Shown here piece by piece: positions 2,807 to 40,290 of a stretch of DNA of 42,080 nucleotides. Both the position numbers and the translations under genes were made by a program. The DNA comes from a virus: the IMG/VR virus record IMGVR_UViG_3300026118_000024, positions 1 through 42,080 of that record; one strand, written 5' to 3'. Under the pieces are notes generated by a model that saw only the letters and a program-made list of their open reading frames with translations, was not told the DNA's origin and ran no database searches. The stretch's first letter is position 1. Each line of letters starts with the position of its first letter.

Positions 2807-3310
2807 ATGCAACATGAGTTTACCACTTCCTCTGTCCCAATGCACGCTAATCCCATTCTGGCTAAGCGTCACTGTTCGGCCACGATCGAACATAGATTTT
2901 GGAAACACGTAGAAAAGACCGATGGCTGCTGGAATTGGACTGGGTGTAAAGATTCATTTGGATACGGTCGTATAGTTAAACGCGGTGGATTCCAGACCAT
3001 GAAGCCTCACATTTTGAGCTGGCTTATCCACAATGGAGAAATCCCTGATGGATTATGTGTGTGCCATTCGTGCGATAATCGCGCCTGCTGCAACCCATCA
3101 CATCTCTGGCTTGGAACATCCAGACAGAACACCTGGGATATGATCAATAAAGGGCGATGCCCGTGGTCAGTGCTCAGTCAGGGTGACGTCGATAATATCA
3201 GGACGGTTTACGGGGAAGGCGGAATCACACAGATGCAACTGGCTAGGGTGTTTGGGGTATCTCGGCAGATGATTGGACATATCGTAACCTTTAAGCGTTG
3301 GAAATCATAG
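2807..3310 (+). CDS. Free-standing HNH homing endonuclease with C-terminal HTH
   Basis: The 167-residue protein carries an HNH-type metal and catalytic core at residues 84-101 (CVCHSCDNRACCNPSHLW), with candidate catalytic H87, N96 and H99 and Cys residues that could bind zinc. A helix-turn-helix-like segment follows at about 141-160 (QLARVFGVSRQMIGHIV), typical of the DNA-recognition end of phage HNH endonucleases. The N-terminal FWxxVxKTxGCW motif is shared with the second HNH gene at 4650-5174, so they are paralogues. The gene runs against the surrounding minus-strand operon and overlaps the end of the convergent glycosyltransferase gene by six bases, as expected of a mobile endonuclease gene. 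An ATG at residue 12 is an alternative start; the first ATG has AGGA seven bases upstream. Confidence 0.9.
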   Translation: MQHEFTTSSVPMHANPILAKRHCSATIEHRFWKHVEKTDGCWNWTGCKDSFGYGRIVKRGGFQTMKPHILSWLIHNGEIPDGLCVCHSCDNRACCNPSHLWLGTSRQNTWDMINKGRCPWSVLSQGDVDNIRTVYGEGGITQMQLARVFGVSRQMIGHIVTFKRWKS

Positions 3311-4649: not shown

Positions 4650-5174
4650 ATGCCGCCAAATATTACTTCCGACTACCTCGCTGCTCAAGGGCTTAATACT
4701 ACTATCCCAGCCAAGTTCTGGCGGCGTGTGACCAAAACCAACGGCTGTTGGCTCTTTGATGGCGGGAAGCACAACCGACATTGGGCCATTGGTGTCGGCC
4801 GTGGAACCATGGGGGTTCATCGCATAAGCTACATCCTCAATGTGGGGCCAATTCCAGAAGGACATCAGGTCCACCACAATTGTCCAGATGGAGACAGAGG
4901 TGACTGCGTGAATCCAGATCATCTGTGGACTGGGAACCAGAGCTCAAATCTCCGGGATGCAATTTCGAAAGGTCGATGGAAGACACATTTTAACGGCAAA
5001 ACTGGGGAGCTTTGTCCCAACTCTAAACTTACCTGGAAACAAGTGATTGCCATAAGAGCGAACAGGCGTAGTTATCGAGAGCTTGCCATGATATACGGCG
5101 TGTCGAAAGGGACTATTGGATTCATTCGTCGCAACGAGACTTGGAAACCCGAAAATCAACCGATGCACTCGTGA
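4650..5174 (+). CDS. Second HNH homing endonuclease with C-terminal HTH
   Basis: The 174-residue protein has an N-terminal FWRRVTKTNGCW motif, a VHHNCPDGDRGDCVNPDHLW core at about residues 74-93 (HH at 75-76, N88, H91) and a C-terminal HTH-like segment (YRELAMIYGVSKGTIGFI, about 142-159). This is the same domain order as the HNH protein at 2807-3310, so the two are diverged copies. The catalytic His, Asn and His are all present, so it may be active. It is transcribed against the virion operon and lies beyond the 5-prime end of the glycosyltransferase gene. No clear Shine-Dalgarno sequence precedes the ATG. The product would nick or cut DNA at an intron-free allele of a related phage and so spread the cassette. 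Confidence 0.9.
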   Translation: MPPNITSDYLAAQGLNTTIPAKFWRRVTKTNGCWLFDGGKHNRHWAIGVGRGTMGVHRISYILNVGPIPEGHQVHHNCPDGDRGDCVNPDHLWTGNQSSNLRDAISKGRWKTHFNGKTGELCPNSKLTWKQVIAIRANRRSYRELAMIYGVSKGTIGFIRRNETWKPENQPMHS

Positions 5175-6324: not shown

Positions 6325-6531
6325 TTATCCTCCGGTCCCTTCAATCTTGTGGATGAGCCGGTGCAGCGCTTGGATGTCCCGCTCCCGGGCTAAGCGCATG
6401 GCAGAGAACCAGCGCCTGACTCCAGGGAGCCTGAGCATTTCCTCAGGGGGCTCGGGCAGCCGGTCAAACAGCACTTCTGTGATCAGTTCTTGCCTGATCG
6501 ATCTACGCGATAATTCTATTGGGTCTCCCAT
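6325..6531 (-). CDS. Small charged protein of unknown function
   Basis: The product is a 68-residue, Arg/Glu-rich, mostly helical protein with no membrane segment. Its ATG overlaps the stop of the upstream gene (TAATG at 6533-6529), indicating translational coupling with the Cys-rich protein. It sits in the minor-virion part of the operon. A virion linker or chaperone is possible, but nothing in the sequence decides this. Confidence 0.6.
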   Translation of the reverse strand: MGDPIELSRRSIRQELITEVLFDRLPEPPEEMLRLPGVRRWFSAMRLARERDIQALHRLIHKIEGTGG

Positions 6532-7127
6532 TATGGTGAATCCTGTTGGCCCCAGCCTTTAATCATCTTGCTTAGGGCCGAGAACTGGCCGGCGCCACCG
6601 ACGCCAGAAATCCTGAAACGAGTAGAGAGGTAAATGCCACGACGCCAGGTTGGGTAATAAAACGTGCCATCAGGCCTGGTGCGGTCAGCAATGTGCTGAG
6701 CAGCTGATTTGGCAGTCTGACATTCGAATGGCAAGTCGCGGGTTTCCTTCCAGGTGAAACAGTTTGGGGTTGGCGCAAAACCGACGTCGACCTGAAGGTC
6801 TAACGGGCTGGATGAGGGCAGTGGCTCAGCTTCAACGCCCACCATCTTGATCATCTTTTCGTCGTCAGTGCGGTAGTTTTCGGCGCCTTCCTGCATAACG
6901 GTGTCGTAGCCGTCCCTGACGTAGCAGGTCAGGTCACAGGCGTATGGGCCGTAAGGGTCACAGCTTGCGTCCTGGCAACAGGCATTGACCACCAGCCCAC
7001 AGAAGTTACCCGCATCGATAAGCGCACCCAGCTGGCCATCGGACCGGAACCGGATTCGTCCAGCGGCTAGGTCCAGATCGTAGTCCACGCCTGCGACCAA
7101 GTTGAGTTCGACGACGGTGCAGGCCAT
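6531..7127 (-). CDS. Cysteine-rich putative virion protein
   Basis: The 198-residue protein contains about ten Cys residues, most between residues 43 and 70 (NFCGLVVNACCQDASCDPYG) and another group near 120-136. Such clusters suggest metal binding or, outside the cell, disulfides. The N-terminus looks beta-rich. The start lies seven bases after an AGAGGT ribosome binding site and overlaps the stop of the preceding propeller gene. It has no signal peptide. Several neighbouring virion proteins in this window are also unusually Cys-rich. I do not recognise the family. Confidence 0.6.
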   Translation of the reverse strand: MACTVVELNLVAGVDYDLDLAAGRIRFRSDGQLGALIDAGNFCGLVVNACCQDASCDPYGPYACDLTCYVRDGYDTVMQEGAENYRTDDEKMIKMVGVEAEPLPSSSPLDLQVDVGFAPTPNCFTWKETRDLPFECQTAKSAAQHIADRTRPDGTFYYPTWRRGIYLSTRFRISGVGGAGQFSALSKMIKGWGQQDSP

Positions 7128-8461: not shown

Positions 8462-10609
8462 TCAAACGATCGTCACTTCTACTGAGCTAGCCGCAGGCCC
8501 GTCTATCCAGGTTGAAACCGCCAAATTATAGGTGCCATACGGACAATTGGCCTGTGGCGTAAGCTGATACGAAGCGAATGAGGCCCCTCGATAGATGCTG
8601 ATCCACCAGTTACCCGGCGCGCCTGACAGTATGACACCAATGCCACCAAAACCGACTGGGCCAGAACACCAATTCAACCACTGGCACGGAGGGCTTCCGG
8701 CATTCACCAGTGATCCGTCCCAGGCTGGGCAACCGAGCGCTTCCGGCCCCGCCTGATACATTGGCATCAGATCCCGGGCGTAAAGCGTTACGGGCATCTG
8801 GGAACAATCCGTCCCGCAGTCTTCTGGCTCTGGCTCTGGCTCGGGTTCGGGCTCCGCATCCGGATCCGCAGGCTGCTCTATTATCCGATTAGGATCTGGG
8901 CACACGGGCCCGTCCTTGATGCCGGTGGCCACCTTGCTTCCACGTGGACAGATGCCCAGGGTCTCCATCCATTCACCCACCGTGGGCCGCTGGTCCCGGT
9001 GGAAGGTCAAGAAAGCCGTGAAGCCGTGGTCGATGAAGTCAGCGGCGCTGAATTTGAGGTTAAGCCGTAACGTGACGTCCGGACAGATGTTGTCTCCGGT
9101 TGGCCAAGAGAAGAATGCTTCGCGGGTGTTCTCGTTCCAACCGCCTGTGACCAGATTGCAGGCATCGTTGTTGATGCGTTGATAGGTGGCGTCGTCCTCA
9201 GCTATTCCGTTATAGACAAAGCCGGCGGCCCTAGTGATCCACTCCACGTTAATCGGCCGGGTATCGAACTGAGTGAACATGTAAATGTCACTCTCGCCCA
9301 TATAAATGTGGGCGTCGCCAGCGTTTACCAGGGAATACTTGTAGCGCAGAGCGTTGCCACCCCGATAAATCTCCTCGAAGTTAAACACGTCTTCCCCACC
9401 GACCAGGGACACCCGGATGATTGATTTATCGGTGTAAAGGATGAGCCAGTTTCCGATGGGCGCGGCAGCCAGGATAGTCTCTCCAACCGCTGTGGTGGCC
9501 CGGCCGGCAAAACTGGTATCACTTTCGATGAATGAATTGGGATCCTCCAGATCACTCCAAATAATCGTACTGCCGCTGCGCACGCCGGCTTCGGTGATGT
9601 CGAAGAAGATTACGAATCCCTTCCAGGTAACCACTCCGCCAGCTCGGGTAATACCAAGCACTGCCAGGTCTGTGATCGGTTGGAGTGACTGAAGCCCGCA
9701 GCCAGAAGAATCGCTTCCAAGTTGGTAGATAAATGGGGGATCGAAGTTATTGGTGAAAACAAGGTATTCTCCAATGGTAGCGGCCATTCCTCGAACGCTG
9801 TTGCACCCGCACTGTTCGGTCGTGTATCCGGAATTACCCAGTCCATCGGCCAATATCCGCCAATTCCCTGCTGATTGATTGAATTCATAAACTCTGGACA
9901 TGGTTGCGGCCACCAGTTTGCGGCCCTGGGCGGTGACCACTTCGGTTAACATCGTGATAGCTTCCCGGCATCCAGGCCGGCTCCACAGATAATCTCCGCA
10001 ATACTCGTGGTCGTAGGCAAAGAGGGGGTCATAGACGGGCGTCTGCGGCCCGTATGGGTAGCCCGCAACTAGATCCCCTGGATACTCCACCTGGCAGGAT
10101 GTGTACACGTAGGAATCCAGGTAGTTGAACGGGGCGCCCGTCGTCAGGCTGTCGGGCAAATCAGGGCGCTGGATGAACCGATAAGGATACCCCACGTATG
10201 GGTAGAAGATTGTGCACGGGCCATAGAGCATCTCCGGGAAATCCCCGACATAAACCGGAGAAAATGGACCCGATGCTGGAGGATAGGCGAAGGTGGTGGG
10301 CTCCTGATAGACTCCAGTGAAGTAGGCGTAGATGTAGCCATGCAGGCCTCCACCACCCATGACGTGCTCTTCGAAAGAATCGTAGTAGCCCAGCCGGGTC
10401 GTTAACTGGTCGTGAAGGTCCTGGTTGTTGTATGGATCGTCGTCAGCGAACAGGCGACGCCAGCCACCAGACCGATTACGGTTTCGAGTGGAGCGGGTAA
10501 CAGCGTTTTTAACTACGCGCCAATTACCAAAGCCAATCTCATCTGCGCTTGAGAGCGTGTCGAACACGCCCGTCATGGGTCTTAGCTTGATCGTCTTGAA
10601 GTCTGACAT
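8462..10609 (-). CDS. Tail nozzle-like protein
   Basis: The 715-residue protein begins like podovirus nozzle proteins, with a segment setting out an Asn/Arg-rich GNWRVVKNAVTRSTRNR element. It continues with beta-propeller-like strands, including TIIWSDLEDPNSF and GNWLILYTDKSIIRVS, which resemble motifs in P22 gp10/T7 gp12-type proteins. Near residue 580 a run of Pro-Glu dipeptides acts as a linker to a C-terminal domain of about 120 residues rich in Cys, Trp and Gly, perhaps an exposed beta-sandwich. Position after the collar gene and before the propeller gene supports a tail-tip role. The family assignment comes from recall of sequence style, not a search. Confidence 0.6.
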   Translation of the reverse strand: MSDFKTIKLRPMTGVFDTLSSADEIGFGNWRVVKNAVTRSTRNRNRSGGWRRLFADDDPYNNQDLHDQLTTRLGYYDSFEEHVMGGGGLHGYIYAYFTGVYQEPTTFAYPPASGPFSPVYVGDFPEMLYGPCTIFYPYVGYPYRFIQRPDLPDSLTTGAPFNYLDSYVYTSCQVEYPGDLVAGYPYGPQTPVYDPLFAYDHEYCGDYLWSRPGCREAITMLTEVVTAQGRKLVAATMSRVYEFNQSAGNWRILADGLGNSGYTTEQCGCNSVRGMAATIGEYLVFTNNFDPPFIYQLGSDSSGCGLQSLQPITDLAVLGITRAGGVVTWKGFVIFFDITEAGVRSGSTIIWSDLEDPNSFIESDTSFAGRATTAVGETILAAAPIGNWLILYTDKSIIRVSLVGGEDVFNFEEIYRGGNALRYKYSLVNAGDAHIYMGESDIYMFTQFDTRPINVEWITRAAGFVYNGIAEDDATYQRINNDACNLVTGGWNENTREAFFSWPTGDNICPDVTLRLNLKFSAADFIDHGFTAFLTFHRDQRPTVGEWMETLGICPRGSKVATGIKDGPVCPDPNRIIEQPADPDAEPEPEPEPEPEDCGTDCSQMPVTLYARDLMPMYQAGPEALGCPAWDGSLVNAGSPPCQWLNWCSGPVGFGGIGVILSGAPGNWWISIYRGASFASYQLTPQANCPYGTYNLAVSTWIDGPAASSVEVTIV
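8824..8870 (-). repeat. Short tandem repeat encoding a Pro-Glu linker
   Basis: Six-base units of the CTGGCT type recur here and encode alternating Pro and Glu residues in the nozzle-like protein. The array could expand or contract by slippage in whole codons and so change linker length without frameshift. Confidence 0.7.
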
Positions 10610-10620: not shown

Positions 10621-11277
10621 TTAGATCTTGATAAACGGATAAGCGATAATACATGGGTGAATGACGTTGAAGGGCTCACTGTCACCCGTGGTCTCCATTG
10701 GATCGGCAAAAGCATAATCAAGCGACCCGCTTCGGTTGATGTCGTTGATCTTTCCCACTGCCTGTTGCACCAGGATTTGCTGGCTGTCGGTAGTGTTGTA
10801 ATCGTGGCGATGGGTGGCTAATTCGGCCTCCGTTTGGGTATGGCGCTCTTCGCCCACGTTGACGGTATTGATGTCGCGATTGGATAATCCGGTGCCTTGA
10901 CCGGCGCCAATTGGAGAGCGGCCACGTAAATCGGGTAATCCGAAGGTGGTGCTGCCGTCCCCAACGCCGTAGCGGGTGCCGATGGCGGCGAAGAGATTGG
11001 CGTAGGTCGTGCGGGAGATATCGCTGCCATCGGCCAAGATCCAGCCCGGCCCCATATTTAGGGTAAGTGAGTAAGCAATCATACCCGTTGGGGTGCTAAA
11101 GGTGGCCACCTCCTCCTTAAACGTCTGGCTGATGGATCGGTCGGTATTGAGCATCCAGCCGAACAAATCACAGAGCAGCTGTGGGATGCCCAGGAATTTG
11201 GACATCTTGACGCACAGGTCGGCGTTGGCCGCTGGAACGGCGTCACAGAATTGGGTGGGTGAAACGGGTGATGGCAT
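10621..11277 (-). CDS. Phage tail-collar domain protein
   Basis: Residues about 65-135 match the tail-collar family: GWILADGSDISRTTYANLF, then IGTRYGVGDGSTTFGLPDLRGR. The C-terminus ends in a PFNVIHPCIIAYPFIKI segment, also typical of such proteins. Collar domains form trimeric fibre tips or necks and occur in short tail fibres. The N-terminal 60 residues would attach to another tail protein. There is no signal peptide, unlike the four genes transcribed before it. It starts ten bases after the stop of the lectin-like gene. Confidence 0.85.
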   Translation of the reverse strand: MPSPVSPTQFCDAVPAANADLCVKMSKFLGIPQLLCDLFGWMLNTDRSISQTFKEEVATFSTPTGMIAYSLTLNMGPGWILADGSDISRTTYANLFAAIGTRYGVGDGSTTFGLPDLRGRSPIGAGQGTGLSNRDINTVNVGEERHTQTEAELATHRHDYNTTDSQQILVQQAVGKINDINRSGSLDYAFADPMETTGDSEPFNVIHPCIIAYPFIKI

Positions 11278-11287: not shown

Positions 11288-12103
11288 TTATTCGTTTGGC
11301 CAAAATGACATTAACTGGCTTCCGAGCGGATTGCCGCTGCTGCTTTGACCGAATCGTGGGATAGCGTTAGACACGAACTGACCCCAAGGGACACGACTCG
11401 GAATTCGTTGACTAGACTCCATGTCTTGACCATACCGAATATTGCTCCAATCAATGTTTAGCACGCAATGCTGTGGATAGATAACATAAGGCAACCCAGC
11501 TACACGTGTTTTATAAAGCATCTGAATTTGAGTGCTACTAAGATTTGTGCGCCAGGCCATGACCGGGCCTTGTTCACCCATTAAAATCCCACCTCCAACC
11601 ACCTGCGCCGTGGGTCCTGAAAGGCTAAATTCGTGCTGGTTTGGGAGGCTATTACTGTTTCCGTTCCCACTGGTCCACGATCCTGAGATGGGGGCGCCAT
11701 CCAAATACATTTGCATTGATGATCCAGCCGTTCCGTAGGTGAATGTAAGTGCAACGAATCGGAGGCGATTGGTCCAGATAATCGTCGAAGAGGACTGATA
11801 CGTGTGCAGCCCACCAACTTGGTCGGTATAATCGAATTCGAATTTGCTGCCAGAAATGCGCAGCAGATAATTACAGCTGGCAGTGAAGTCCAATCGGCCT
11901 TTGGAAAAGAACACATTCTTTTGTTCCAGCCCAGTACCAGTATCTCGAATTCTGAGCCAAACGGCAATGGTGATGCTGTTGCTCAGCACATTCATTGAGT
12001 TGGTCATGTTCGGACCGCAGAAATAGGTGTTTAGATTACCAGTCCCGAACCAATCAGCTTTGGCAGCAACCACACTCAACAGTAATGCCAGTAGTATTCT
12101 CAT
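11288..12103 (-). CDS. Secreted-looking LamG/concanavalin-like lectin protein
   Basis: This 271-residue protein begins with a clear Sec signal peptide (MRILLALLLSVVAAKA, then DWFG). The mature part resembles a LamG-type jelly roll: SITIAVWLRIRDTG, LRFVALTFTYG, MQMYLDGAPISG and a late GPVMAWRTNLSSTQIQMLY motif that recalls the end of concanavalin-like modules in cell-surface proteins. Such domains bind glycans. The start overlaps the stop of the upstream gene (ATGA at 12103-12100). It is the last of four consecutive genes with N-terminal leaders in the position where tail fibre genes are expected. Confidence 0.7.
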   Translation of the reverse strand: MRILLALLLSVVAAKADWFGTGNLNTYFCGPNMTNSMNVLSNSITIAVWLRIRDTGTGLEQKNVFFSKGRLDFTASCNYLLRISGSKFEFDYTDQVGGLHTYQSSSTIIWTNRLRFVALTFTYGTAGSSMQMYLDGAPISGSWTSGNGNSNSLPNQHEFSLSGPTAQVVGGGILMGEQGPVMAWRTNLSSTQIQMLYKTRVAGLPYVIYPQHCVLNIDWSNIRYGQDMESSQRIPSRVPWGQFVSNAIPRFGQSSSGNPLGSQLMSFWPNE

Positions 12104-12813
12104 GGGAAATTACCAACCTGAACCATCTCGATGCCTACAATGCACCCACTGAATGCGCCGGCATTGGAAACCGCACAGGTCGTATCGGCATTCTTTGCCT
12201 GATATACGATGGTTAGCTCTGTGGCTGGGGTGTTGAAGGCCACATCAACAATCTCTGTCCAGCCAGCTTCCGCAGTATTCGCCGTTCCGTTGAGGTTACC
12301 GCCCACTAGCCCAATGCATAGCGTCCGTTTGCCAAGTGCAGCAAAGGTCGCCGTAATGGTGGTGCCAGCCGAGACGTTTGCGTTAACATTTTGACGCAAT
12401 CCGGTCAGGCCATTGACCCCGGTGATCACTGCCCCGCTCACCTCCACCACAGCCAAGGCCCAGCCGGTCTGAGAGGTGGCGCCAGTATCGGCTGTCAATG
12501 GACCGGCAAAGGCTCCCGACCCGCACTTGGCATACCAAATCGTGAGCCGATGATCCGTTAGATAATTGGTATCGAAAAGCTCCGTCCAGGTTAAGCCATT
12601 GCCAACCAAGTTAGGCTGGTCGGGGGTGGCAGCTTTCGTGTTGATGACGATGGCGATCAGTTCAGTGCCGATCTGTGGCGTATAAGAGCCGGTCGCTTCG
12701 CTGGTATCGTTGGCAGTGTTGGCCGATGAGCCTAGCGCACGAACGGACAGGCCGACCGTAGCCTGTTGGCCGCAACAGCCCAAACAACTTAAGAGTAATA
12801 ATAGCCACTTCAT
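12100..12813 (-). CDS. Secreted-looking beta-sandwich protein (possible lipoprotein)
   Basis: The 237-residue protein has a hydrophobic leader (MKWLLLLLSCLGCCGQQ). One of the Cys residues near 10-14 could serve as a lipobox Cys. The rest is predicted beta-rich, with alternating hydrophobic and Thr/Ser/Asn strands and few charges, and resembles small adhesion or jelly-roll domains (for example GLTWTELFDTNYLTDHRLTIWYA). The start shares one base with the stop of the giant upstream gene (TGATG). Location between the giant repeat protein and the lectin-like protein suggests a common surface structure. The family is not recognised. Confidence 0.6.
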   Translation of the reverse strand: MKWLLLLLSCLGCCGQQATVGLSVRALGSSANTANDTSEATGSYTPQIGTELIAIVINTKAATPDQPNLVGNGLTWTELFDTNYLTDHRLTIWYAKCGSGAFAGPLTADTGATSQTGWALAVVEVSGAVITGVNGLTGLRQNVNANVSAGTTITATFAALGKRTLCIGLVGGNLNGTANTAEAGWTEIVDVAFNTPATELTIVYQAKNADTTCAVSNAGAFSGCIVGIEMVQVGNFP

Positions 12814-15800
12814 CAGTTTGCCCCTATCCCCTCTCGCACCAGATAGGATGCGAATATGTTGGTGTTGAACACTTGCTGGAATGTGAACGTAACCACCTGA
12901 TTGCTGTTAACCAGCACATCGAAATTTCCATTGGTAGATCCTGGAGGCCAATAGATGGTGTTACCAGAGGCGACGGTGCAAAGCAATTGCCATGCATTGG
13001 TTGTTCCATTCCCAAGTCTTCCAGAACCGAAAGCATTTAACGTATGTGTGACGCCATCATTACAGTTGGTTAGCTGGAGGACCAAATTGGTTTTGAGTGC
13101 GTTACTAAACGTCTGCCACTGAGCCAATTTGAAGTCGATATTGTTGGTCCTAAATGCAACGGCGTTGGAGTGGAGAAGGGGAACGGATATGTTATAAAGA
13201 CCATTGGAGCTGATCAGTAGCGCCAATGCGCCATTGGTCTGTCTCCACTCTATCAGGTTAGTCATACTTCCAACGCTGGCAGTCGCAATCGAGGCTGGAC
13301 TGGTCAGGTTGGATGGATAGAGCATAATGTTTGTCAGAAGCACGCCCTCCTTGATCGAGAGCGTAGTATTGGCCCCAAATTGATTGGCGTTTGTGGCCAG
13401 CCCTCCACCGCTAGCTGCTACTGCTCCCCACCCAAGGTTGCCCGACCCATCATTGGTAAGAACAGTTTGGGCGGCTCCCTGAGCACTGGGCCAGGAATAA
13501 GCCACGCGCTTGAGCAGTTTCAGATCGCCAATGCCGTTGACTTCGAACATCGGCGTATTGCTATTCTGCAAGCTCATCAGCGTATGGGTATTGGTAATGC
13601 GCATCGTGCTACCGAAGATGTATCCGGTAGGACTCAGACTGAAATCGGGATCGATTTGGTAAGGCGTTATAATGGTTGCTCCTTCATCCTGAACCAGAAC
13701 ATAGGCATCAAAATTCTTATAATCCACAGCGGTTCCTGCACCTCCTGCTCTGAAGAAATACTCCACGAATCCATTGCCTTCCTTATTAGCGGTCACATTA
13801 AAATCACCGTAGTTTGTGCTGACGTGCATCTCGGCATTTCCGCTATAGCCAACCACGCTGTTGTAGGTTGTCAGTAGGACTGATTTCTCGGGACTATCAA
13901 CCCCGAAGGCCGTATCGTACGCGATATCAATTGCCGCCTGAGGGACAGGTATATAGTTGGTCGAGCCAATCATTATTCCTTGATCGCCAACGACCAGTGC
14001 GCTGGCCCCGCCGTTAAAGACCGCAAACAGCACATTGGTTCCGCCGATCCTTCGAGTGCTGGTCTGAAATAGGAAATTGGTTGCTCGTGCTAGTTCAGCG
14101 GCTGATACAGTGTTAGTTGGATTGAAAATTATATTGGTCGGGTATGCGATTGGGTAAAGGGTTCCAGATTTATTGGTCCATACGATATCCGCAAATGTTA
14201 CAGACCCACCACTGGCTGATACGGCGCCCCAACCTAAATTGCCGGACCCATCATTGGTTAACACCGTTTGCGCCGCTCCCTGCGCATTTGGCCATGAGTA
14301 TGGGATGCGTTTCAGTAGTTTCAGGTCACCGATGCCATTAACCTCAAACATCGGGGTATTACTATTCTGAAGCGACATCAAAGTGTGCGTGTTGGTAATC
14401 CGCATGGTGCTATTAAATAGGTAACTTGTCGGACTCAGGCTGAAGTCGGGGTCAAACTGGAATGGTCTAATAATGGTGCCTCCGGCATCCTGAGCCAGAA
14501 CATACATATCGAAATTAAGCCAAGTTGCATCTTGTCCAATAACTTGAGTGAAATTTATGAACCCAGTGCCATCTCGATCAGCGGTCAATACAGTGTTAGC
14601 AAAATTAGTGCTAACGCTGGTGACTGCCGATGAATTAAATCCAACGGCGCTATTTTGAGATGTTAGGCTGATTGCCTTGCTTGGCGCATCCCCAAGAGAT
14701 GTGTCATAAATGGCATTTATCGCTTGCCCATTGATAGGAGTGCCGTTAGCTGACCCGATGAATATACCAGCATCACCTACGGTAAGTGCGTTGTTTGTTC
14801 CGTTATAGACCCTGAATACTTTGTTGGTTCCACCAGCTCTGGTTTCGGTGCTGCCAAAATAGAAATTAGTCCTAAATCCCGCATTGGTTGGGCTTAGGAT
14901 AGTGTTGGTTGGATAAGCGTTTGGAAGCAATTCACCGACGCGATTGGTCCAAACCAAATCTGATAACGCCACCCCACCACCACCTGTAGAAGCGATGACA
15001 TAGTTACTTCCGTTTGGAGTGATGGTTATGTTAGCCCCAGCCTCAAGCCCGCGAATCTCTCCGGTCACGTTGGTAGCGCCCGCTGCCGTTCCGACACCGA
15101 CCACCAGTGGCTTGATCGTCCCGTTGGAAAGAGTCGGGCTAAACAGGTTGGTGACGGCTCCTGTTCCAGCAAGATTGGTGAGTGTCGCATTGCCAGGTTG
15201 GAATATCTGCTGGAGTTGTTGGGTCACGATGCCTGCTACGAAATTGGTGGCATAGATTAACCCATATCCCGCTGTGACATCGAAGTCTCGGGTCCAGATC
15301 AAGACGTTGGTGGCTGGCACCAGAGAGTCTCGGCTGACATAAACCACTGAGGGCGCATTGCTGTTGATGTTGGCCGCACTTCCGTTGTTGCCGATATACC
15401 AACTAGCCGGGATTTCAGTCGTGTTGGCCCATAGCCTGACAGTGGTCCCGTTGGTGACGTATGTTTTTACCACAATCGTCTGGCCAGCTTGGATGTTGGT
15501 GAATACGTAGTTGGTCTGTGGTCCAGTCGCTGGATTGAATTGGAACCAAGACGAATTGGTACCATCAAATACCACATTGGTACCCAGGAACTGAGGCGCA
15601 GTCCAGACGTTGGTGAAAGAGCCCAAGAATCCAGCACCATAATGAATCGCATTGGTCAGCAACGGTGCATCTTTGATGGTTAACTCCACCGAAGCGCCGA
15701 ATTGGTTCGCATTGGTCGTAAGGCTAGACCCTCCGCTACCAGACGAAGCGATAACGATGTTGCTCCCATTTGGGGTCAAAGTGACGTTAGCTCCCTGCTC

Positions 15801-18800
15801 CAACCCAAAGAATCTGCCCGTATAATTAGTGGCGAAGTTGTTGGCAGACGGGAACACCACCGGTTTCATCGTAGCGTTGCTAAGCGACGCACTGAACACG
15901 TTGGTAATGGCGCCAGTGCCAGAAAGGTTGGTAAGGGTTTGGCTGGCGGGTTGGCGTTGGGTGATCCAATTGGTGACGCTGGCGCTGTTTGTGGCAGCCG
16001 TGACATAATTGGAAACCGAGTTCACCCAGTTGGACACTCCCACCACGTTAGTCGTGCTTGCCGTCTGCGCCCAATCTATCGCGACTAAGATGTTGGAAGC
16101 GTTCATCGTGATGGCCTGACCGCTGCCCTGTTCAATTCCGAAAATCGTCAGCACACCCGACGTATAGCTATTTGTGAGCGGCTTACTTGTCGCGTTCGTC
16201 GTGCTGAGAGAGACCACATTAGTGACGTTCTTTGCTACCGTGCCAACCAGATTAGAAAGAACAGCATTGGCGGGTTGGCGTTGTGTAATCCAGTTGGTAA
16301 CCGAGGCCGAATTGGTAGCTGCCGTGACGTAGTTGGACACGGAATTCACCCAATTAGACACTCCAACGACATTGGTGGTGCTTGCCACCTGTGCCCAATC
16401 GATCCCAACGACAATGTTGGAAGCGTTAACCGTGATAGCTTGGCCACTACCCTGTTCAATGCCAAACATCGTCAGGACGCCTGACGCATAGCTGTTTGTC
16501 AGCGGTTTGCTCGTCGCATTGGTTGTGCTTAAGGACACGAAATTGGCAGTGGACGAGATGACGTAGTTGCTGCCATTGGGCGTGATCGTGATGTTTGCAC
16601 CGGCCTCAATGCCCCTAATCTCGCCAGTGGTATTAGTCGCGCCAGCCGCCGTTCCAAGCCCCACCACCAACGGCTTGATAGTGGCGTTAGAGAGAGTTGG
16701 GCTGAATATGTTCGTGAAGGTTCCGCTGCCCGCACTGGCAGTACCCCAGGTTCCCTTGCCGTTCGCATCAGAGGTGAGCACCTTCCCGGCTCCAGCGCCA
16801 TTGGTCATCAGGATGGTCATGTCCTCCAGCAAATGCAGATTGGTCGTGGAGACCATCACCCGGTTGTTGTTGGTGGTGCCAAGCAGGATGGTTTTATCTA
16901 AGGTGTTCGTCTGAAATGATCCAATGGCTGCGGCCATTATAGCGCCACTTATCTTGTTGGAAACACCACCAGGGATGAAACTAAAGTGGGAACCACCCGC
17001 TCCTGGGTTGCCAATAAAATTAGTGTAGCCACCAGAAATAACTCCATACTGGGCAAAGCCATCAATGTTATTCAGAGAGCCTCCGGCAATGGTGCCGCTG
17101 ATTGCATCGGACACATTACCCCGGCCACCACCAATAGTTCCATACAACGCAGAACTTTGAAGGAAATTGCCAAAACCACCACCAATGGTTCCATAATCCT
17201 CATGTATACTGTTTTGGCTACCACCACCAATCGTGGTTAAACCATCCACCGTTGACTCTCCTGAAATATTGTTTAACCCACCTCCAACCACAGAACCGAT
17301 GCCCCTTGTCTCGTTTCCAGATCCTCCACCAATAGAGCCATAGCGCATGCGAGAAATATTGTCCGCTCCACCAACCATGGAACTCATAAACGCATCAGTG
17401 AGAATCCTATTCCTAAATCCGCCTACAATAACGCAATTGCTTGCGCCTGGGTCCATTTGGTTCTTACTGCCTCCTCCAATTATGTTGCGCCCACTTGCAC
17501 TGGATTCAGCAAATAAGTTCTCAGTACCTCCAACGATTACAGAATAGATGTAATTGGTCGGGATTATGTTTCCGTACCCACTCAACACTGCGCTCATATA
17601 TCCACCAGCAAGGTTGTTGGAACCAAATGACACCGACCCTATGCCAAGGTTTGTCACATCCCAATAATCGCTTCCAATGCCCGTGGATAGCTGACCAACA
17701 CGAAATGACCGACGCGGCGCATACCACTCAAGATTAAGGCGGGCTCCATTGGTGGCAGAGGTGCCGAAATGGATGCGGTTACTATGGACGTAGGGATAGA
17801 TGGTATCGGTGTTGTTGGTCCAGATAAGGTCGGCAAAGGTAAGACCGCCGCCCGAAGCCACTGCGCCCCATCCCAGAATGCCAGAACCATTGTTGGTCAG
17901 AGCTGTGCCGGCCGCACCTTGGGCGCTGGGCCACTGGTAAGGGATCTTCTTGATTAGTCTTAGATCGCCCACACCGTCCACTTCAAGCACCGGGAAATTG
18001 CTGTTTTGGAGCGACAGCAGGGTATGGATGTTGGTGATACGAACGCTGCTGCTGAACAAATAATTGGTCGGGGTAAGTAGTGTGAAGTTGGGGTCCACCT
18101 GGAAGTAGGTCGCCCCATCGACCAGCGCCTGCATCGAGAAGGTGTTAAAATCTTGTGGGTTGATTCCGGCCCCAGCCTGGATGGCAAACCGGCTAAACTT
18201 GGTTCCGCCCTCCTTATTGGCGAACAGGATTATGGCCCCATAATTGGTGTCGACGATCAGGTCGGCGGCGCCGTTGTAGCCCACAGCGCTATTCTGGCTC
18301 ATGGTAAAAATCTCCTGCTGGTTGGTCTCGCCAAGAGCCGTATCGTATATGCCGTAAAGGACTACGCCTGGGAATGGGGTGGGATTACCGCGACCCATAA
18401 ACAGCCCGCCATAGGGGCCGACCGTGACGGCGTTGCTGCCGCCGTTGTAGATAGCGAACAATTTGCTGGTTGCATTTGTCCGGTAAACCCGACTGTCGAA
18501 GTAGTAATTGGTGCCGGTTCCGTTATCAGGGACGTTCACCCGTAACAGCACGTTGGTCGGGAAAGCGACTGGCTTGAGCGTGCCATTGTCGTTGGTCCAT
18601 ATCAGGTCCGAAAATGCCACCGTGCCACCGCTACCAGCCACGGTTCCCCAACCCAAGATGCCGGCGCCATTGTTGGTGAGGGCAGTTCCCGCTGCCCCAT
18701 TGGCCGATGGGAATGTATAATCCACATTCCTGAACACATACCGGGTGATGTTGGTCCCAAGCATCATCTGGTTGTCTGCGGTGATGCGAGTAAGGGCCCC

Positions 18801-19664
18801 AATCCCAACGGCGTTGGTTAATCCACCGGAGATGGCCGTGGCTTGATATCCGATAGCAACCACGTTTGTCAGGTCGTCAATGCCAGTGAGTGCAAATCCT
18901 CCAAGTGCTACATTTCCCTCCAATCGGTCGCTGTTAAACATCGCCTGATTCCCCGCGACCAAGTTGTAATTGCCTCCACCTAGACCACCACTAATGGCCC
19001 TAGATCCAAGAGCAGTATTTCCAATGCCCTCCAGTTTATCCATGGCTCCATATCCAACCGCTGTACCATCATACGAAGTGGTCAAATGGACCATTGATGC
19101 TGCCCCAAGAGCCGTATTCTGATGACCAGTTGTGAATTCGCGAAGGGCGGAATATCCTAACGCCACATTGTCCTCACTAATATCGTTGAACTCCATTGCC
19201 CTATACCCAACCGCCACGTTGTTTAGACCACTAGAATTAGTAGCCAAAGCTCTATGTCCAATGGCCACATTTTCGCCACCACTAGAACGGCTCAATGCGT
19301 CACTACCTATGGCTACGCTATTTACAGCTCCAACATTAGGGGGCAACGCATTGCTCCCAAAGACAGTGTTGGTCCCATCAGCCCGAATCAGTCGGCCAAA
19401 AATTCTGTTGGTCAGGAACTGAATTCGAGATGGGTCAACAATCGTGTAAATTACCCCTACATCATTGGTCCAAACCTGATCTCCGACACCTGACACAAAG
19501 CCATTGGTCAACGCCCTGCCGTCGATGATGATAAAGCCCTGTGGAGGATTGGACGTGATGATGATTCCGTTGGTTCCAAGGAATGATGTATAGGACGGGT
19601 TGGCCCCAAACAGCACGCTAGCAAAACAAAGTAGCGCACAAACAGCTGCGAGTAATCTTCTCAT
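12813..19664 (-). CDS. Giant repetitive fibre or adhesin with signal peptide and YadA-head-like repeats
   Basis: The open frame extends to 19769, but the ATG at 19664 is the better start. It overlaps the upstream stop (ATGA) and gives a perfect Sec leader, MRRLLAAVCALLCFASVLFG. The protein then has 2,283 residues. Residues about 115-305 are trimeric-autotransporter-head-like repeats (SVAIGSDAL, NVAIGHRAL, NVAVGYRAM, NVALGYSAL). About 690-950 is a second beta-roll array of GGG-x-N units. The remainder holds near-identical long blocks (GAAQTVLTNDGSGNLGWGAV, GEIRGIEAGANITITPNGSN and others). Composition is extremely rich in Thr, Asn and Gly. There is no C-terminal outer-membrane barrel and no chaperone domain. 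It is probably a trimeric long tail fibre, but the leader is unexpected for one. Confidence 0.8.
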   Translation of the reverse strand: MRRLLAAVCALLCFASVLFGANPSYTSFLGTNGIIITSNPPQGFIIIDGRALTNGFVSGVGDQVWTNDVGVIYTIVDPSRIQFLTNRIFGRLIRADGTNTVFGSNALPPNVGAVNSVAIGSDALSRSSGGENVAIGHRALATNSSGLNNVAVGYRAMEFNDISEDNVALGYSALREFTTGHQNTALGAASMVHLTTSYDGTAVGYGAMDKLEGIGNTALGSRAISGGLGGGNYNLVAGNQAMFNSDRLEGNVALGGFALTGIDDLTNVVAIGYQATAISGGLTNAVGIGALTRITADNQMMLGTNITRYVFRNVDYTFPSANGAAGTALTNNGAGILGWGTVAGSGGTVAFSDLIWTNDNGTLKPVAFPTNVLLRVNVPDNGTGTNYYFDSRVYRTNATSKLFAIYNGGSNAVTVGPYGGLFMGRGNPTPFPGVVLYGIYDTALGETNQQEIFTMSQNSAVGYNGAADLIVDTNYGAIILFANKEGGTKFSRFAIQAGAGINPQDFNTFSMQALVDGATYFQVDPNFTLLTPTNYLFSSSVRITNIHTLLSLQNSNFPVLEVDGVGDLRLIKKIPYQWPSAQGAAGTALTNNGSGILGWGAVASGGGLTFADLIWTNNTDTIYPYVHSNRIHFGTSATNGARLNLEWYAPRRSFRVGQLSTGIGSDYWDVTNLGIGSVSFGSNNLAGGYMSAVLSGYGNIIPTNYIYSVIVGGTENLFAESSASGRNIIGGGSKNQMDPGASNCVIVGGFRNRILTDAFMSSMVGGADNISRMRYGSIGGGSGNETRGIGSVVGGGLNNISGESTVDGLTTIGGGSQNSIHEDYGTIGGGFGNFLQSSALYGTIGGGRGNVSDAISGTIAGGSLNNIDGFAQYGVISGGYTNFIGNPGAGGSHFSFIPGGVSNKISGAIMAAAIGSFQTNTLDKTILLGTTNNNRVMVSTTNLHLLEDMTILMTNGAGAGKVLTSDANGKGTWGTASAGSGTFTNIFSPTLSNATIKPLVVGLGTAAGATNTTGEIRGIEAGANITITPNGSNYVISSTANFVSLSTTNATSKPLTNSYASGVLTMFGIEQGSGQAITVNASNIVVGIDWAQVASTTNVVGVSNWVNSVSNYVTAATNSASVTNWITQRQPANAVLSNLVGTVAKNVTNVVSLSTTNATSKPLTNSYTSGVLTIFGIEQGSGQAITMNASNILVAIDWAQTASTTNVVGVSNWVNSVSNYVTAATNSASVTNWITQRQPASQTLTNLSGTGAITNVFSASLSNATMKPVVFPSANNFATNYTGRFFGLEQGANVTLTPNGSNIVIASSGSGGSSLTTNANQFGASVELTIKDAPLLTNAIHYGAGFLGSFTNVWTAPQFLGTNVVFDGTNSSWFQFNPATGPQTNYVFTNIQAGQTIVVKTYVTNGTTVRLWANTTEIPASWYIGNNGSAANINSNAPSVVYVSRDSLVPATNVLIWTRDFDVTAGYGLIYATNFVAGIVTQQLQQIFQPGNATLTNLAGTGAVTNLFSPTLSNGTIKPLVVGVGTAAGATNVTGEIRGLEAGANITITPNGSNYVIASTGGGGVALSDLVWTNRVGELLPNAYPTNTILSPTNAGFRTNFYFGSTETRAGGTNKVFRVYNGTNNALTVGDAGIFIGSANGTPINGQAINAIYDTSLGDAPSKAISLTSQNSAVGFNSSAVTSVSTNFANTVLTADRDGTGFINFTQVIGQDATWLNFDMYVLAQDAGGTIIRPFQFDPDFSLSPTSYLFNSTMRITNTHTLMSLQNSNTPMFEVNGIGDLKLLKRIPYSWPNAQGAAQTVLTNDGSGNLGWGAVSASGGSVTFADIVWTNKSGTLYPIAYPTNIIFNPTNTVSAAELARATNFLFQTSTRRIGGTNVLFAVFNGGASALVVGDQGIMIGSTNYIPVPQAAIDIAYDTAFGVDSPEKSVLLTTYNSVVGYSGNAEMHVSTNYGDFNVTANKEGNGFVEYFFRAGGAGTAVDYKNFDAYVLVQDEGATIITPYQIDPDFSLSPTGYIFGSTMRITNTHTLMSLQNSNTPMFEVNGIGDLKLLKRVAYSWPSAQGAAQTVLTNDGSGNLGWGAVAASGGGLATNANQFGANTTLSIKEGVLLTNIMLYPSNLTSPASIATASVGSMTNLIEWRQTNGALALLISSNGLYNISVPLLHSNAVAFRTNNIDFKLAQWQTFSNALKTNLVLQLTNCNDGVTHTLNAFGSGRLGNGTTNAWQLLCTVASGNTIYWPPGSTNGNFDVLVNSNQVVTFTFQQVFNTNIFASYLVREGIGAN
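13425..14500 (-). repeat. Two near-identical coding blocks with synonymous divergence (third, weaker copy near 17,865-18,150)
   Basis: Blocks beginning near 13,425 and near 14,225 encode almost the same segment (for example MSLQNSNTPMFEVNGIGDL) but differ at many third positions. In an 80-base stretch compared by eye, essentially all differences are silent, including an AGC-to-TCG serine switch. A more diverged copy lies near 17,865-18,150. Confidence 0.75.
15945..16539 (-). repeat. Tandem 324-base coding repeat in the giant fibre gene
   Basis: A unit starting at 15,945 is repeated from 16,269, a period of 324 bases (108 residues). Both encode the segments NVVGVSNWVNSVSNYV and TNWITQRQPA. 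As in the other block pair, protein identity is much higher than DNA identity. Confidence 0.8.
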
Positions 19665-21172
19665 CTTCGTAGTGGTATTTTCAAAGCTCTTACCTTTTGG
19701 GCGAGCACTGCCGGCCCTTCTGGGGCTTGGGCGCCTCGCAGGGTGTGTGGGTAAGTGTAGGGTGCCCAACCAGTCTTGGTGGCATTAGTGAAATCTCGGC
19801 CTTCGATACAATAGGTGCTCATGGCCGGGCCACCACCGCACCCGTCAGGGGCATAATCGACATTAGCAATGGCCATGGCGGCACTGTTTTGCCAGTAATA
19901 GAGCGGGTCGTTGAACATCGAACTGCCATTATGGCTTTGGCCAATCTGTTGAGGCTGTGGCCAGCCACTGTTCCAACAGCAATCGTTTGCGCATGAACGG
20001 CGTAACGCCTGGATCTGCTGTTTCATCTCAGTCTTGTTCCCCCATTGGCCGGAGGTAATGTCCTCGATAGAATTGCTACAGACGATACCGGTACCGCCTC
20101 GGATGAAGAACAGGTAGTCCAGTGGGTAGCTGTCCACGCCGAGGTTATCGAACAAAGTGGTATTCTTATAGAACTGGAAGTGGCGCAGGCCAGTGCCAGT
20201 ATCCCGGCCGTGACTGGTCCCACCGCTATTGTCCATCAGGGAATGGCGGATAACGGTGCGGGCCATCTCATCGACGTCAAAGCTTTGCAGCGACGTCCCC
20301 ACCCACACGCTGTCTTCGATGTAGAGGTTGCCAGTGCCATCGGTATCGTTTTGGCCAAGCGTGTCGGCTGTGGTCCAGGAAGTCGTCAGGCTAGCCGGCT
20401 TATGCTGCATCATGGAGCAGTCTGGCGCGGCGTTGTTGTCGCCTTCGCCACCGTAGAAAGTGCTGTCCCAGTAATTGCTCCAGATGACCCCACGGTTGGT
20501 TTCCACCCGCAACGCTATGTCGTTCTCAGTGCCAGTAATGCGGTTGTCATGCCACAGGATGGGTTTTCCACCGGAAGTATTGTTCCACTTAATCATGGCG
20601 CCACTGGTCTGGAACACTCCACCGATGAAATGTAACTGGCTTACCTCAACGTTGTGGGTGGTGTCTTCGGTAATGCTTAAGCCAGTGGAAGTTCCGGTGT
20701 TAAACGTCACTGAGCTAGTGCCAGCATGGACAAAGACCCAGGCTGCTTTCGTCGTAGTGCCATTGGCAATGGTGACATTGATGACCAAGGTAGAACCTGA
20801 ATAGCTATCCACGGTGCCGAACATGCTTAAGGGCGCGCCATTGGCGACGTAGTAGGCACCAATTTCATCTCCAACGGTCCACTTGAGCCCAGTCTGAGTG
20901 GTGAAAGTTTTGAGTCCGATGTCGATGAGAACGCTGGACCGGCTCCAGCCTGATATCCAGCCACCATCCACCCCCTTCAGATGGATGCCTTTGCCAGAAA
21001 TGGTGACTGTGGTGTCCCAGTCAAAGTTGCCGACCGGAATAGTGACAGTGTCCCCATCGGAGGCAGAATCAATCTTGGCCTGCACATCGGTGTCCGAACC
21101 GTCCGACACGAATGTGGCGGCCTGCGACATAATCGCCAGCAACATGAAGAGGATGGCCAGCAGCGCTCTCAT
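19661..21172 (-). CDS. Secreted-looking right-handed beta-helix protein
   Basis: The frame opens at 21199, but the ATG at 21172 overlaps the upstream stop (ATGA at 21172-21169) and begins a typical Sec leader (MRALLAILFMLLAIMSQA). The 503-residue product continues with FVSDGSDTDVQAKIDSASDG and GDTVTIPVG, the opening turns of a pectate-lyase-like parallel beta-helix. Later coils contain VIRHSLMDNSGG and similar. This fold is common in phage tailspikes that bind or cleave polysaccharide. No lyase active site is recognised. The C-terminal part is Cys-rich (SCANDCCWNSGW). It is the first of four consecutive genes with leaders and directly follows the adaptor-like gene. Confidence 0.75.
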   Translation of the reverse strand: MRALLAILFMLLAIMSQAATFVSDGSDTDVQAKIDSASDGDTVTIPVGNFDWDTTVTISGKGIHLKGVDGGWISGWSRSSVLIDIGLKTFTTQTGLKWTVGDEIGAYYVANGAPLSMFGTVDSYSGSTLVINVTIANGTTTKAAWVFVHAGTSSVTFNTGTSTGLSITEDTTHNVEVSQLHFIGGVFQTSGAMIKWNNTSGGKPILWHDNRITGTENDIALRVETNRGVIWSNYWDSTFYGGEGDNNAAPDCSMMQHKPASLTTSWTTADTLGQNDTDGTGNLYIEDSVWVGTSLQSFDVDEMARTVIRHSLMDNSGGTSHGRDTGTGLRHFQFYKNTTLFDNLGVDSYPLDYLFFIRGGTGIVCSNSIEDITSGQWGNKTEMKQQIQALRRSCANDCCWNSGWPQPQQIGQSHNGSSMFNDPLYYWQNSAAMAIANVDYAPDGCGGGPAMSTYCIEGRDFTNATKTGWAPYTYPHTLRGAQAPEGPAVLAQKVRALKIPLRR

Positions 21173-22185
21173 ACCCAGGTCTGACTTGGAATGTCCCACT
21201 GCTGGATGGAGCCTCCGCCCGTAGGATAAAAGACAGCCGCTTGGGTGGGGTCATCCGGGGTAGTTGGTGGTGTCGCGCCCGTATAGACCTGGATGATGCC
21301 TCCACCAGAGATACTGTAGATATAATCGCCAACCCCCAGACCGGCCCCCACCCCATACAGTCCGTAAGCCGGCGCGAAGGCTGACATCAGCTGCTCGATG
21401 GCCGAAGTGCAGTCCCGCTCCAGTTCAGTGTCTTGCTCGTCGTGATAGCGGTATTTGAGCATGCGCAGGTTGACCGCATAGAGCGAGTAATACTCGGTCA
21501 TGGAGACTGAGTTGCGCTCCTTGAGGGCAATCTTGTGCTCGACATAATTGACCACCGCTTCACGCAGTTGTTGGTCAACTGGAACTAGATCAATGTTCTC
21601 CCATTTGCGCCGAATCCCCTGCCATTGCATGAACAGGCTGTAGCCACAGGGGAATCGAGGGGCAGCGTAAACGCGGTAATCTGGTCCAACTGCAAATATT
21701 CGATTGTCGTCGTCCAGACTGGTGAATCGGCAGGTGTCCTCGGTTCCATTGAGATAAGGGGGATTACAGGCGACTTCTCCCAAGATGACGTAGTTGCAAT
21801 AGGGAGTATCATAAATATGGGTCGGCGGCGGGGTGAACGTGCATTGGACACAGCGCTGCCGCTCCAGCCAACAATCCAAGGCAGAGGTGCTGACCCGTTT
21901 GTAGTAGTACTTCTTGCACTCCCGACCTGGGGTATAGGCGAAGAGTTGGGTAATTTTACCCACCGGCCCGGTGAAGATGCTAGCCGAACAGAACTCTTCC
22001 ACGTCTTCCTTGGTATAGGCATTGACGTTGAAGTTCCTAAACCAAGGGATGAGGGTCTGGATATCGGCCAGGGCGTTACCGACTTGATCGCGAAAGAACG
22101 GAGTCAACTCCTCGCCCAAATCTTCGGGAGCCACCAGCCGTTGGACGGTGGACAAGAAGAGCGCGAAAGGTTGGTACTCGATCAT
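21169..22185 (-). CDS. Head-tail adaptor-like protein with Gly-rich C-terminal extension
   Basis: The protein has 338 residues. It follows capsid, as podovirus adaptor genes do, and has a helical core (EAVVNYVEHKIALKERN, then SLYAVNLRMLKYRYHDEQD) similar in style to tail adaptor proteins that sit below the portal. The middle is rich in Cys and aromatic residues. The last 70 residues are Gly/Thr/Pro-rich with PTGGGSIQQWDIPSQTWV, perhaps a separate beta domain that contacts the appendages encoded next. The start has AAGGA six bases upstream and overlaps the stop of the preceding gene; the 3-prime end overlaps the beta-helix gene start. The function is inferred from order and secondary-structure pattern. 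Confidence 0.55.
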   Translation of the reverse strand: MIEYQPFALFLSTVQRLVAPEDLGEELTPFFRDQVGNALADIQTLIPWFRNFNVNAYTKEDVEEFCSASIFTGPVGKITQLFAYTPGRECKKYYYKRVSTSALDCWLERQRCVQCTFTPPPTHIYDTPYCNYVILGEVACNPPYLNGTEDTCRFTSLDDDNRIFAVGPDYRVYAAPRFPCGYSLFMQWQGIRRKWENIDLVPVDQQLREAVVNYVEHKIALKERNSVSMTEYYSLYAVNLRMLKYRYHDEQDTELERDCTSAIEQLMSAFAPAYGLYGVGAGLGVGDYIYSISGGGIIQVYTGATPPTTPDDPTQAAVFYPTGGGSIQQWDIPSQTWV

Positions 22186-29487: not shown

Positions 29488-31026
29488 ATGATTAAAGTAA
29501 ATGACAAAGGTTTTATCTACGAGCCAGGCGTGTGGCTGCCGTCGATGAACCTTAAGCAGTTAGAAATCTTCAACAACTATCACCGTTACCTGTTGGTACA
29601 CGGTCCACGTAAGAGCGGTAAAACCTTTGGGATCTTGCACAAGATTTTGCGGCACGCCTTTGACGTCAATGGCGCCATGATTGGCATCGTCACTAAGACC
29701 ATCAAGAACGCCAAGAGCGCGGGCGTGTGGGTGTTGCTGGGTAAGATGTTAGTTGAATGGGAGAAGGGCTGTTACGGCTTCAAGGTCACCGAGGGACCCA
29801 AGACGACCGGTGACTCCAAGATGAGCTTTGTGCGTATCCGCAATCGGCACGGATCGATCTCAGAGATCCAATGCCATTCCTTGGAACATTCCTCTGAAGT
29901 AGAGGCCAAGTTCAAAGGGCCGGCTTACTCCATGTTTTGGTTAAGTGAGTTCGACCAGTATTGCGATGATCATGCATTTAACATTTTCTGCGACGCGCTG
30001 CGCATGAGCCCGCAGGTGAGGTATGAGGAGCATCAGATCATCTGCGATTGTAACCCACCCGATAGCGGCACCAACAATTGGATCCACGACAAATGGTTTA
30101 AGTTTAAGGATAAACCAACGGAGGACGGTGAAGACGAATATTTCCGCGCCTGCCTGCACCGGATCTTAGTCATGATCGATGACAATCCTCAGCTTGATCC
30201 ACGGGAACGCAAGGAACTGGAGAGCCGCTACAGCAAACGTAAAAGTTTACGAGCCCGCTTCATCCTTGGTCTGTGGGAACAAGACATCACTGATGGCCAT
30301 TTCTCCGATGTATGGGATGAGGCGACACATGTGGTGGGGAAGGCCGATTGTCTGCCAGAGGATCGAGAAGTGATCGTGCCAACCAGCAACTGCACGGTGC
30401 TATTGGGTGGCTGGGATATGGGCGAAAGCAAAAACCACAGCTTCCACGTGATCGAGAAGATTATCACTGAAGACCCGGAGACTAAACGCAAGGTGGTGAG
30501 CTTTTCGATCGTCGATGAGTTAGTGGTGATTCGAACGTTCATCTCTATCCGCCAATTCGTGGAGGCGGTCATGGATAAGATCACGCACTGGAACGATTAT
30601 CATAAGAAGACTCACAAGATTGAGCTTAAATGGCGGCACTGGTCAGACACTAGCGCCTTCCGCGAACGGTCGGCAGCGGAGACGTCTGAGGCGGGCATCG
30701 CCTATGAGGCCAGTGACGGACAAATTGTATTGGAGCCAGCACCCAAATATCGAAACTCCAACCGGGACAAAGTGAAGTTAATCTGGGAATTGCTTTATCA
30801 GAAACGCTTGCACGTATCGGCGCAGTTGTTTAAGACCCGGGCTATGTTCGCCAATTTACGGAGCGGCACAGAAGCCGAATACATCAAGGAAGACGATCAT
30901 AAACATCCATTCGATTCCCTCTCTTATCCCATCATCGCGGAGGCGCCGATGGACATGTTGCGCACTACCCAGATCAACGCCGTTAAAAAACAATCCTCGC
31001 CGGGCCTAGTCCTGGCTAGCTTCTAA
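29488..31026 (+). CDS. terL: Terminase large subunit
   Basis: The 512-residue ATPase-nuclease powers DNA packaging through the portal. Walker A is GPRKSGKT at residues 39-46, Walker B MFWLSEFD at 149-156, and a CDCNPPDSGTNNWIHDKWF coupling segment follows near 187-205. The RNase-H-like nuclease shows GGWDMGES (D310), HWSDTSAF (D387) and DDHKHPFDSLSY (D470, D476), supplying the acidic residues that bind metal. Length is normal for the family. It is on the plus strand, divergent from portal with hardly any spacer, and its stop overlaps the next start (TAATG). No small terminase was recognised in the window. No Shine-Dalgarno site precedes the ATG. Confidence 0.95.
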   Translation: MIKVNDKGFIYEPGVWLPSMNLKQLEIFNNYHRYLLVHGPRKSGKTFGILHKILRHAFDVNGAMIGIVTKTIKNAKSAGVWVLLGKMLVEWEKGCYGFKVTEGPKTTGDSKMSFVRIRNRHGSISEIQCHSLEHSSEVEAKFKGPAYSMFWLSEFDQYCDDHAFNIFCDALRMSPQVRYEEHQIICDCNPPDSGTNNWIHDKWFKFKDKPTEDGEDEYFRACLHRILVMIDDNPQLDPRERKELESRYSKRKSLRARFILGLWEQDITDGHFSDVWDEATHVVGKADCLPEDREVIVPTSNCTVLLGGWDMGESKNHSFHVIEKIITEDPETKRKVVSFSIVDELVVIRTFISIRQFVEAVMDKITHWNDYHKKTHKIELKWRHWSDTSAFRERSAAETSEAGIAYEASDGQIVLEPAPKYRNSNRDKVKLIWELLYQKRLHVSAQLFKTRAMFANLRSGTEAEYIKEDDHKHPFDSLSYPIIAEAPMDMLRTTQINAVKKQSSPGLVLASF

Positions 31027-40088: not shown

Positions 40089-40089
40089 C

Positions 40090-40287
40090 ATGAAAACAGT
40101 CCACGGCAGTCCGTTTAAGATGGACTGGAAGGACCTAGCAGAGGTGAAGCGGTATGCCGATGCGCTGGGCAAAGGGTGCGTCGTGTTCAAGCATCCGGAC
40201 CGGGATAACTACAACATCACGTTTCGGACGATGTTCGATCGCAGGCGCTACGCTGATCAGGGCTGTGTGATCGTGCACGAGCCATAG
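40090..40287 (+). CDS. Small protein of unknown function
   Basis: The 65-residue protein begins one base after the previous stop, with AAAGGGA nine bases upstream. It looks like a small alpha/beta fold: a helix DLAEVKRYADALGKG, then strands CVVFKHP and YNITFRTMF. It contains two Cys. No family is recognised; packing and the ribosome binding site support the gene. Confidence 0.65.
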   Translation: MKTVHGSPFKMDWKDLAEVKRYADALGKGCVVFKHPDRDNYNITFRTMFDRRRYADQGCVIVHEP

Positions 40288-40290
40288 GTT

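Follow-up and report, generated by a model that had tools for sequence, protein, structure and literature searches.

Four consecutive genes in the tail operon of an uncultured phage encode a beta-helix-type protein, a repeat fibre of 2,283 residues, a small beta-rich protein and a LamG lectin, each with its own predicted Sec-type leader, and the cassette recurs in a second, otherwise unrelated lineage. The explanation that we tentatively prefer, at a probability a little short of even, is that the four genes form a mobile adhesion kit, encoded in the late operon and exported by Sec, which would take the attachment role of a leaderless cytoplasmic fibre and decorate virions outside the inner membrane. 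To our knowledge, the virions of tailed phages are taken to assemble wholly in the cytoplasm.

Genome context and organization of the cassette

The window, that is, the whole stretch of 42,080 nucleotides that was analysed, is an IMG/VR virus record, nearly all of which was found reversed inside an 80.5-kb contig, G001. The window segment at approximately 39950-42080 spans both G001 ends, with the last genes located at G001 78.4-79.8 kb and the others at 1-40 kb. As the last ~2 kb of the window sits at the opposite end of G001, this contig probably represents an almost complete genome of ~80 kb in circularly permuted form. The window encodes a terminase, portal-like and capsid-like proteins and a tail module. 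The terminase, the collar protein and a 715-aa protein were labelled using PHROG/Pfam, and the portal-like and capsid-like proteins were labelled by gene order. No isolate-phage match was obtained for the terminase or the capsid-like protein using tblastn. In addition, sugar enzymes of the GDP-mannose-dehydratase and RmlD types (31026-32887, plus strand) directly adjoin the terminase gene, and an apparent glycosyltransferase/methyltransferase island, judged by eye, is present at G001 ~49-57 kb. Two HNH_3 endonuclease genes (2807-3310 and 4650-5174, plus strand) lie on the strand opposite to the neighbouring structural genes. Leaders resembling twin-arginine signals were observed on two short proteins, MNRRSFITKTALATAAAPLLPGALA at 40698-40991 and MNRRDAIKATLGALAFP at 41217-41501 (both plus strand), neither of which has a Pfam match.

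The cassette forms part of the tail operon on the minus strand, with structural genes on either side, and is flanked by two tail genes. Upstream is a structural-module gene of 338 aa (21169..22185, minus strand), and downstream are the tail collar protein (10621..11277, minus strand; Pfam Collar, E 8e-19; PHROG tail proteins) and a 715-aa virion structural protein (8462..10609, minus strand; PHROG 3287, E 1.3e-19; synteny in relatives), all of which have no leader. Of the four cassette genes, all on the minus strand, the first encodes the beta-helix-type protein of 503 aa (19661..21172; predicted Sec leader at residues 1-18), which is ATGA-coupled to the 338-aa gene. This is followed by the repeat fibre of 2,283 aa (12813..19664; leader at ~1-21; ATGA overlap), the small beta-rich protein of 237 aa (12100..12813; TGATG-coupled), with a leader of the Sec SPI or possibly the lipoprotein type, and the LamG (concanavalin-like) lectin of 271 aa (11288..12103; leader at ~1-16; ATGA-coupled). 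The four open reading frames, their coordinates and their overlaps agree with the first-pass annotation, which had noted three ATGA overlaps, here those of the beta-helix, repeat and lectin genes, and one TGATG overlap, here that of the small gene (one base). The coupled starts fix the N-termini and, as they lie within the structural operon, indicate that the cassette is expressed together with the structural genes. Given their position and repeats, the four products may be labelled putative tail appendages.

The lectin matched Pfam Laminin_G_3 (E 1.7e-7), and the beta-helix protein gave a weak partial match to NCBIfam beta_helix_1 (E 3.4e-4, below the cut-off). The 2,283-aa fibre consists of the leader, a conserved mature N-terminus ANPSYTSFLGTNGIIITSNPP, YadA-like head repeats (residues ~98-303) and then shaft modules. 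Its head region has no Pfam match and resembles the tail fibres and spikes of isolate phages at 31-37% identity, while the other parts of the cassette matched nothing in PHROGs or INPHARED. The isolate phages searched had no copy of the beta-helix, the small protein, the lectin or a second beta-helix, and the small protein was found only in near-identical copies, with no divergent homologue. AlphaFold2 models of the beta-helix (pLDDT 29.5) and the lectin (pLDDT 45.3) were too poor for fold searches. The cassette domains, namely, LamG, beta-helix, YadA-like heads and an SGNH domain in the related contig L052, are probably attachment or polysaccharide-handling modules, for which the domain evidence is modest. 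Cysteine reaches ~4.6% in several leaderless structural proteins (6531-7127 and 21169-22185, minus strand), and cysteine content, considered as a cassette marker, failed to separate the cassette from other structural proteins.

Predicted leaders of the four proteins

Leaders were evaluated with a rule-based signal-peptide test, which considers a basic n-region, a hydrophobic h-region and small residues near the cleavage site. With cleavage sites marked according to the analyst's reading, the N-termini are MRALLAILFMLLAIMSQA followed by ATF for the beta-helix, MRRLLAAVCALLCFASVLFG followed by ANP for the 2,283-aa fibre, MKWLLLLLSCLGCCGQQA followed by TVG for the small protein and MRILLALLLSVVAAKA followed by DWF for the lectin. 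All four proteins were called at their coupled starts, and the Sec-type leader proposed earlier for each of them is thus borne out, most weakly in the small protein. The latter has the lowest leader score of the four (2.68), could be a lipoprotein (LSC/LGC), and its leader rests on one sequence. Across G001, the rule called 4/4 cassette genes versus 6/81 other genes (hypergeometric ~1e-4), and among these six are several that encode small putative lipoproteins or secreted proteins of the FN3-like type.

Misassigned starts, or N-termini that are hydrophobic by chance, could in principle produce such calls, as the rule also called 29 of 499 shadow open reading frames (5.8%) and the small protein is weak. 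However, the coupled starts fix the N-termini, four calls out of four are expected by chance at ~1e-5, and the homologues described below agree, so that this explanation is highly improbable.

The insertion site in related contigs

The site of the cassette was compared among 14 related contigs. In 11 of these (L003, L007, L008, L009, G004/L011, L053, L054, L055, L056, L057 and L058), the 338-aa gene is directly followed by the collar gene, with no cassette. Judged from this site, the four-gene block is an inserted cassette. Genes with leaders occupy the same site in the window, where there are four, in L014, where a leader gene lies behind a repeat fibre, and in L052, where the single leader gene encodes an SGNH hydrolase with intact GDS, GYND and DGLH motifs. 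L006 carries a leaderless fibre-like gene at the cassette site together with a leaderless fibre.

A leaderless fibre of 1,200-1,560 aa is found further downstream in the cassette-free G004, L057 and L058. G001 and L052, which have a leader cassette and in which both sites were readable, are without this downstream fibre, and L007 has neither the cassette nor the leaderless fibre. Moreover, the leader-bearing and leaderless fibres shared no modules in blastp comparisons. The fibres of L057, L058 and L006 start without a leader, in contrast to the cassette fibre. The distribution suggests that one fibre system replaces the other, the comparison being one of two genomes with three and L007 having neither. 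The N-terminus of the G004 leaderless fibre, MKVYDSQGRLKTQVTTVVVGASA, was called by the rule, and this call was judged a false positive, as its close relative L057 has no leader.

The C-terminal ~41 aa of the 338-aa protein (21169-21295) also occur in a small gene of the second lineage. This segment was considered as a docking tag for the cassette and rejected because it is present in G004, which is cassette-free.

Recurrence in a second lineage

The cassette was found again in seven distinct contigs of lineage 2 (G006, L029, L063, L065, L073/74, L075/76 and L078). When G001 was compared with five lineage-2 loci, only the beta-helix, fibre, lectin, 41-aa end of the 338-aa protein, HNH proteins and one 153-aa protein were shared. 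The four-gene cassette is probably horizontally mobile. The 2,283-aa fibre is itself a mosaic, in which the leader and the first 57 residues correspond to lineage-2 fibre 2 and a large share of the shaft to lineage-2 fibre 1, the latter at 79-85%.

In the case of lineage-2 fibre 1, a conserved 66-residue N-domain (82%) is followed by a hydrophobic stretch that varies (53%), then by QPAPP preceded by an invariant A, and by the conserved mature part (89%). The N-domain was seen at L063:7018-7260, at L065:6436-6680 and in five further contigs. The pattern is that of a predicted cleavable signal with an N-extension, and in layout it may be compared with the extended signal peptides that autotransporters carry (PMC2805444). 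In the same exported-fibre cluster, a leader-bearing protein resembling an outer-membrane barrel is encoded at L063:16046-16726 and L065:17183-17860, for which the L063 copy matched Pfam OMP_b-brl at E 0.0044, below the cut-off. FN3 proteins with leaders occur in the same region. A protein of 153/150 aa (G001:61931-62392 and L063:16739-17191) is 83% identical across the lineages and adjoins leader genes in both.

Evolution of the predicted leaders

Every divergent homologue has a leader, namely, 8/8 for the fibre, 6/6 for the lectin and 6/6 for the beta-helix (L029, G006, L073, L075 and L078), with the window included in each count. A basic n-region and a hydrophobic core are kept across all of them. 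In the beta-helix, dN was 0.53-0.56 in the leader versus 0.03-0.045 in the mature protein, with dS of ~0.8-1.4 in both; the leader thus changes its amino acids 12-18 times faster than the mature protein and yet remains a leader. Similarly, the fibre leader has a mean identity of 54% versus 75% in the following 32 residues, and the lectin leader is likewise kept as a leader while changing faster than the mature part. Cleavable signal peptides evolve rapidly and still remain leaders, whereas N-termini that dock into virions do not. The predicted leaders are real and are conserved as leaders, and purifying selection on their properties is suggested. The check for homologues starting downstream of the leader, which had been named in the first-pass annotation, was also run, and no such homologue was found.

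As the leaders are conserved but fast-evolving in divergent homologues, and as further leader-bearing proteins occur in lineage 2, the prediction that they are genuine export signals is supported. Three options had been proposed originally, and the two that involve export, that is, fibres joining the virion outside the inner membrane or adhesins on the host surface, are the ones supported. The third option, in which the leaders would be retained as membrane-active tips, is disfavoured, since conservation is lowest in the leader and the residues past the predicted cleavage site are well conserved. In this reading, ordinary fibres assembled in the cytoplasm would keep uncleaved hydrophobic N-termini as such tips or as hydrophobic pegs into the tail. 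The position and repeat architecture of the proteins are indeed fibre-like, and docking or insertion by a hydrophobic N-terminus is conceivable. However, a basic n-region and a hydrophobic core are kept in all homologues, separate leaders on several proteins are not what a single peg or tip would lead one to expect, and the hydrophobic segment of lineage-2 fibre 1 follows the conserved 66-residue domain and so would not form a tip there. Retained tips or pegs are therefore considered improbable.

The leaders could also be inert leftovers, functionless in the phage, of secreted host adhesins that were captured recently, as secreted proteins of bacteria often contain LamG, FN3 and beta-helix modules. 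Such an origin is very unlikely, because the leaders have been kept over large divergence in two phage lineages and the mature beta-helix is constrained (dN/dS ~0.04-0.06). Moreover, a scan of GTDB genome contigs found no bacterial or prophage relatives of the fibre N-terminus. A scan with the capsid-like protein gave the same result.

Possible roles of the exported proteins

Among known systems, YadA-like fibres and spikes of isolate phages (SPO1 gp2.52, Pelagibacter phage HTVC111P and Roseobacter phage CRP-1) resemble the window fibre in their head repeats and tail-gene context. They differ in that no leader was present in the five N-termini inspected, while each cassette protein has its own predicted export signal. 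Trimeric autotransporter adhesins (type Vc) share the order of a leader followed by YadA-like head repeats; however, the window fibre has no recognised C-terminal translocator, with no Pfam or NCBIfam match to a YadA-type C-terminal membrane anchor, and lies in a phage operon. Virion proteins made with cleavable Sec leaders are known from filamentous phages, namely, the coat proteins pIII and pVIII, but these belong to an unrelated virus type that is assembled in the inner membrane, with no lysis. Among phage proteins, signal peptides are usually found in SAR endolysins and spanins, which are likewise Sec-routed but are lysis proteins rather than fibres or lectins (PMC10194101). In podophages, they have been described for lysis proteins and, in one paper, an internal virion protein, and not for fibres (PMC3765740, PMC10194101, PMC12989515). 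In the literature searched, neither Sec leaders on tail fibres nor leader-bearing fibre cassettes were reported, which is not proof of absence.

An exported product may also remain with the host. The four could be host-surface or extracellular proteins of the moron type, exported in infection or lysogeny to coat or modify the envelope, through superinfection exclusion, adhesion or polysaccharide binding, and never part of the virion; this is a serious but doubtful possibility. Lambda Lom provides a precedent, as this exported protein has a signal peptide and its gene lies in the tail-fibre region, flanked by those for the tail spike and the tail fibre (PMC12309495). The leader-bearing FN3 and barrel-like proteins of the lineage-2 cluster, the latter with a weak match, fit a host-surface role equally well. 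Furthermore, the window phage encodes nucleotide-sugar enzymes, and lysogeny of G001 is possible because of a partial tyrosine-integrase match in the protein at G001:57902-58987. However, Lom is an outer-membrane barrel, whereas the window cassette consists of fibre, lectin, beta-helix and beta-rich proteins, in none of which Pfam and NCBIfam detected an outer-membrane beta-barrel or anchor domain. Their genes are also coupled into the structural operon, and without these four proteins the window phage would have no recognisable long fibre. In the ten records searched, which may be fragments, no tyrosine-integrase match was obtained in nine and no serine-recombinase match in any.

An attachment kit that leaves the cytoplasm is favoured, given the coupling of the genes to the structural operon and the apparent replacement of a leaderless fibre. 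In such a kit, the long repeat fibre, LamG lectin, beta-helix and small beta-rich protein would serve in adhesion and polysaccharide binding. Their leaders would be cleaved by signal peptidase, and the proteins would fold in the periplasm late in infection. Most likely, the kit would then meet and decorate virions outside the inner membrane, at lysis or later. Docking or oligomerisation may fall to the conserved stretch that follows the cleavage site, and reach and specificity to the variable modules further downstream. That in some tailed phages the entire attachment apparatus is exported by Sec, folds in the periplasm and is added to DNA-filled particles outside the inner membrane, with the mobile cassette replacing cytoplasmic fibres and virion assembly divided between two compartments, is possible, although clearly below even probability.

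Implications

A leader cassette shared by two lineages would mean either that virions mature outside the cytoplasm or that a phage-made adhesion kit for the cell surface or for release is encoded in the tail operon. Either meaning alters both the annotation of receptor-binding proteins in uncultured phages and the search for them. Phages sharing this cassette may assemble or deploy their attachment structures beyond the inner membrane.
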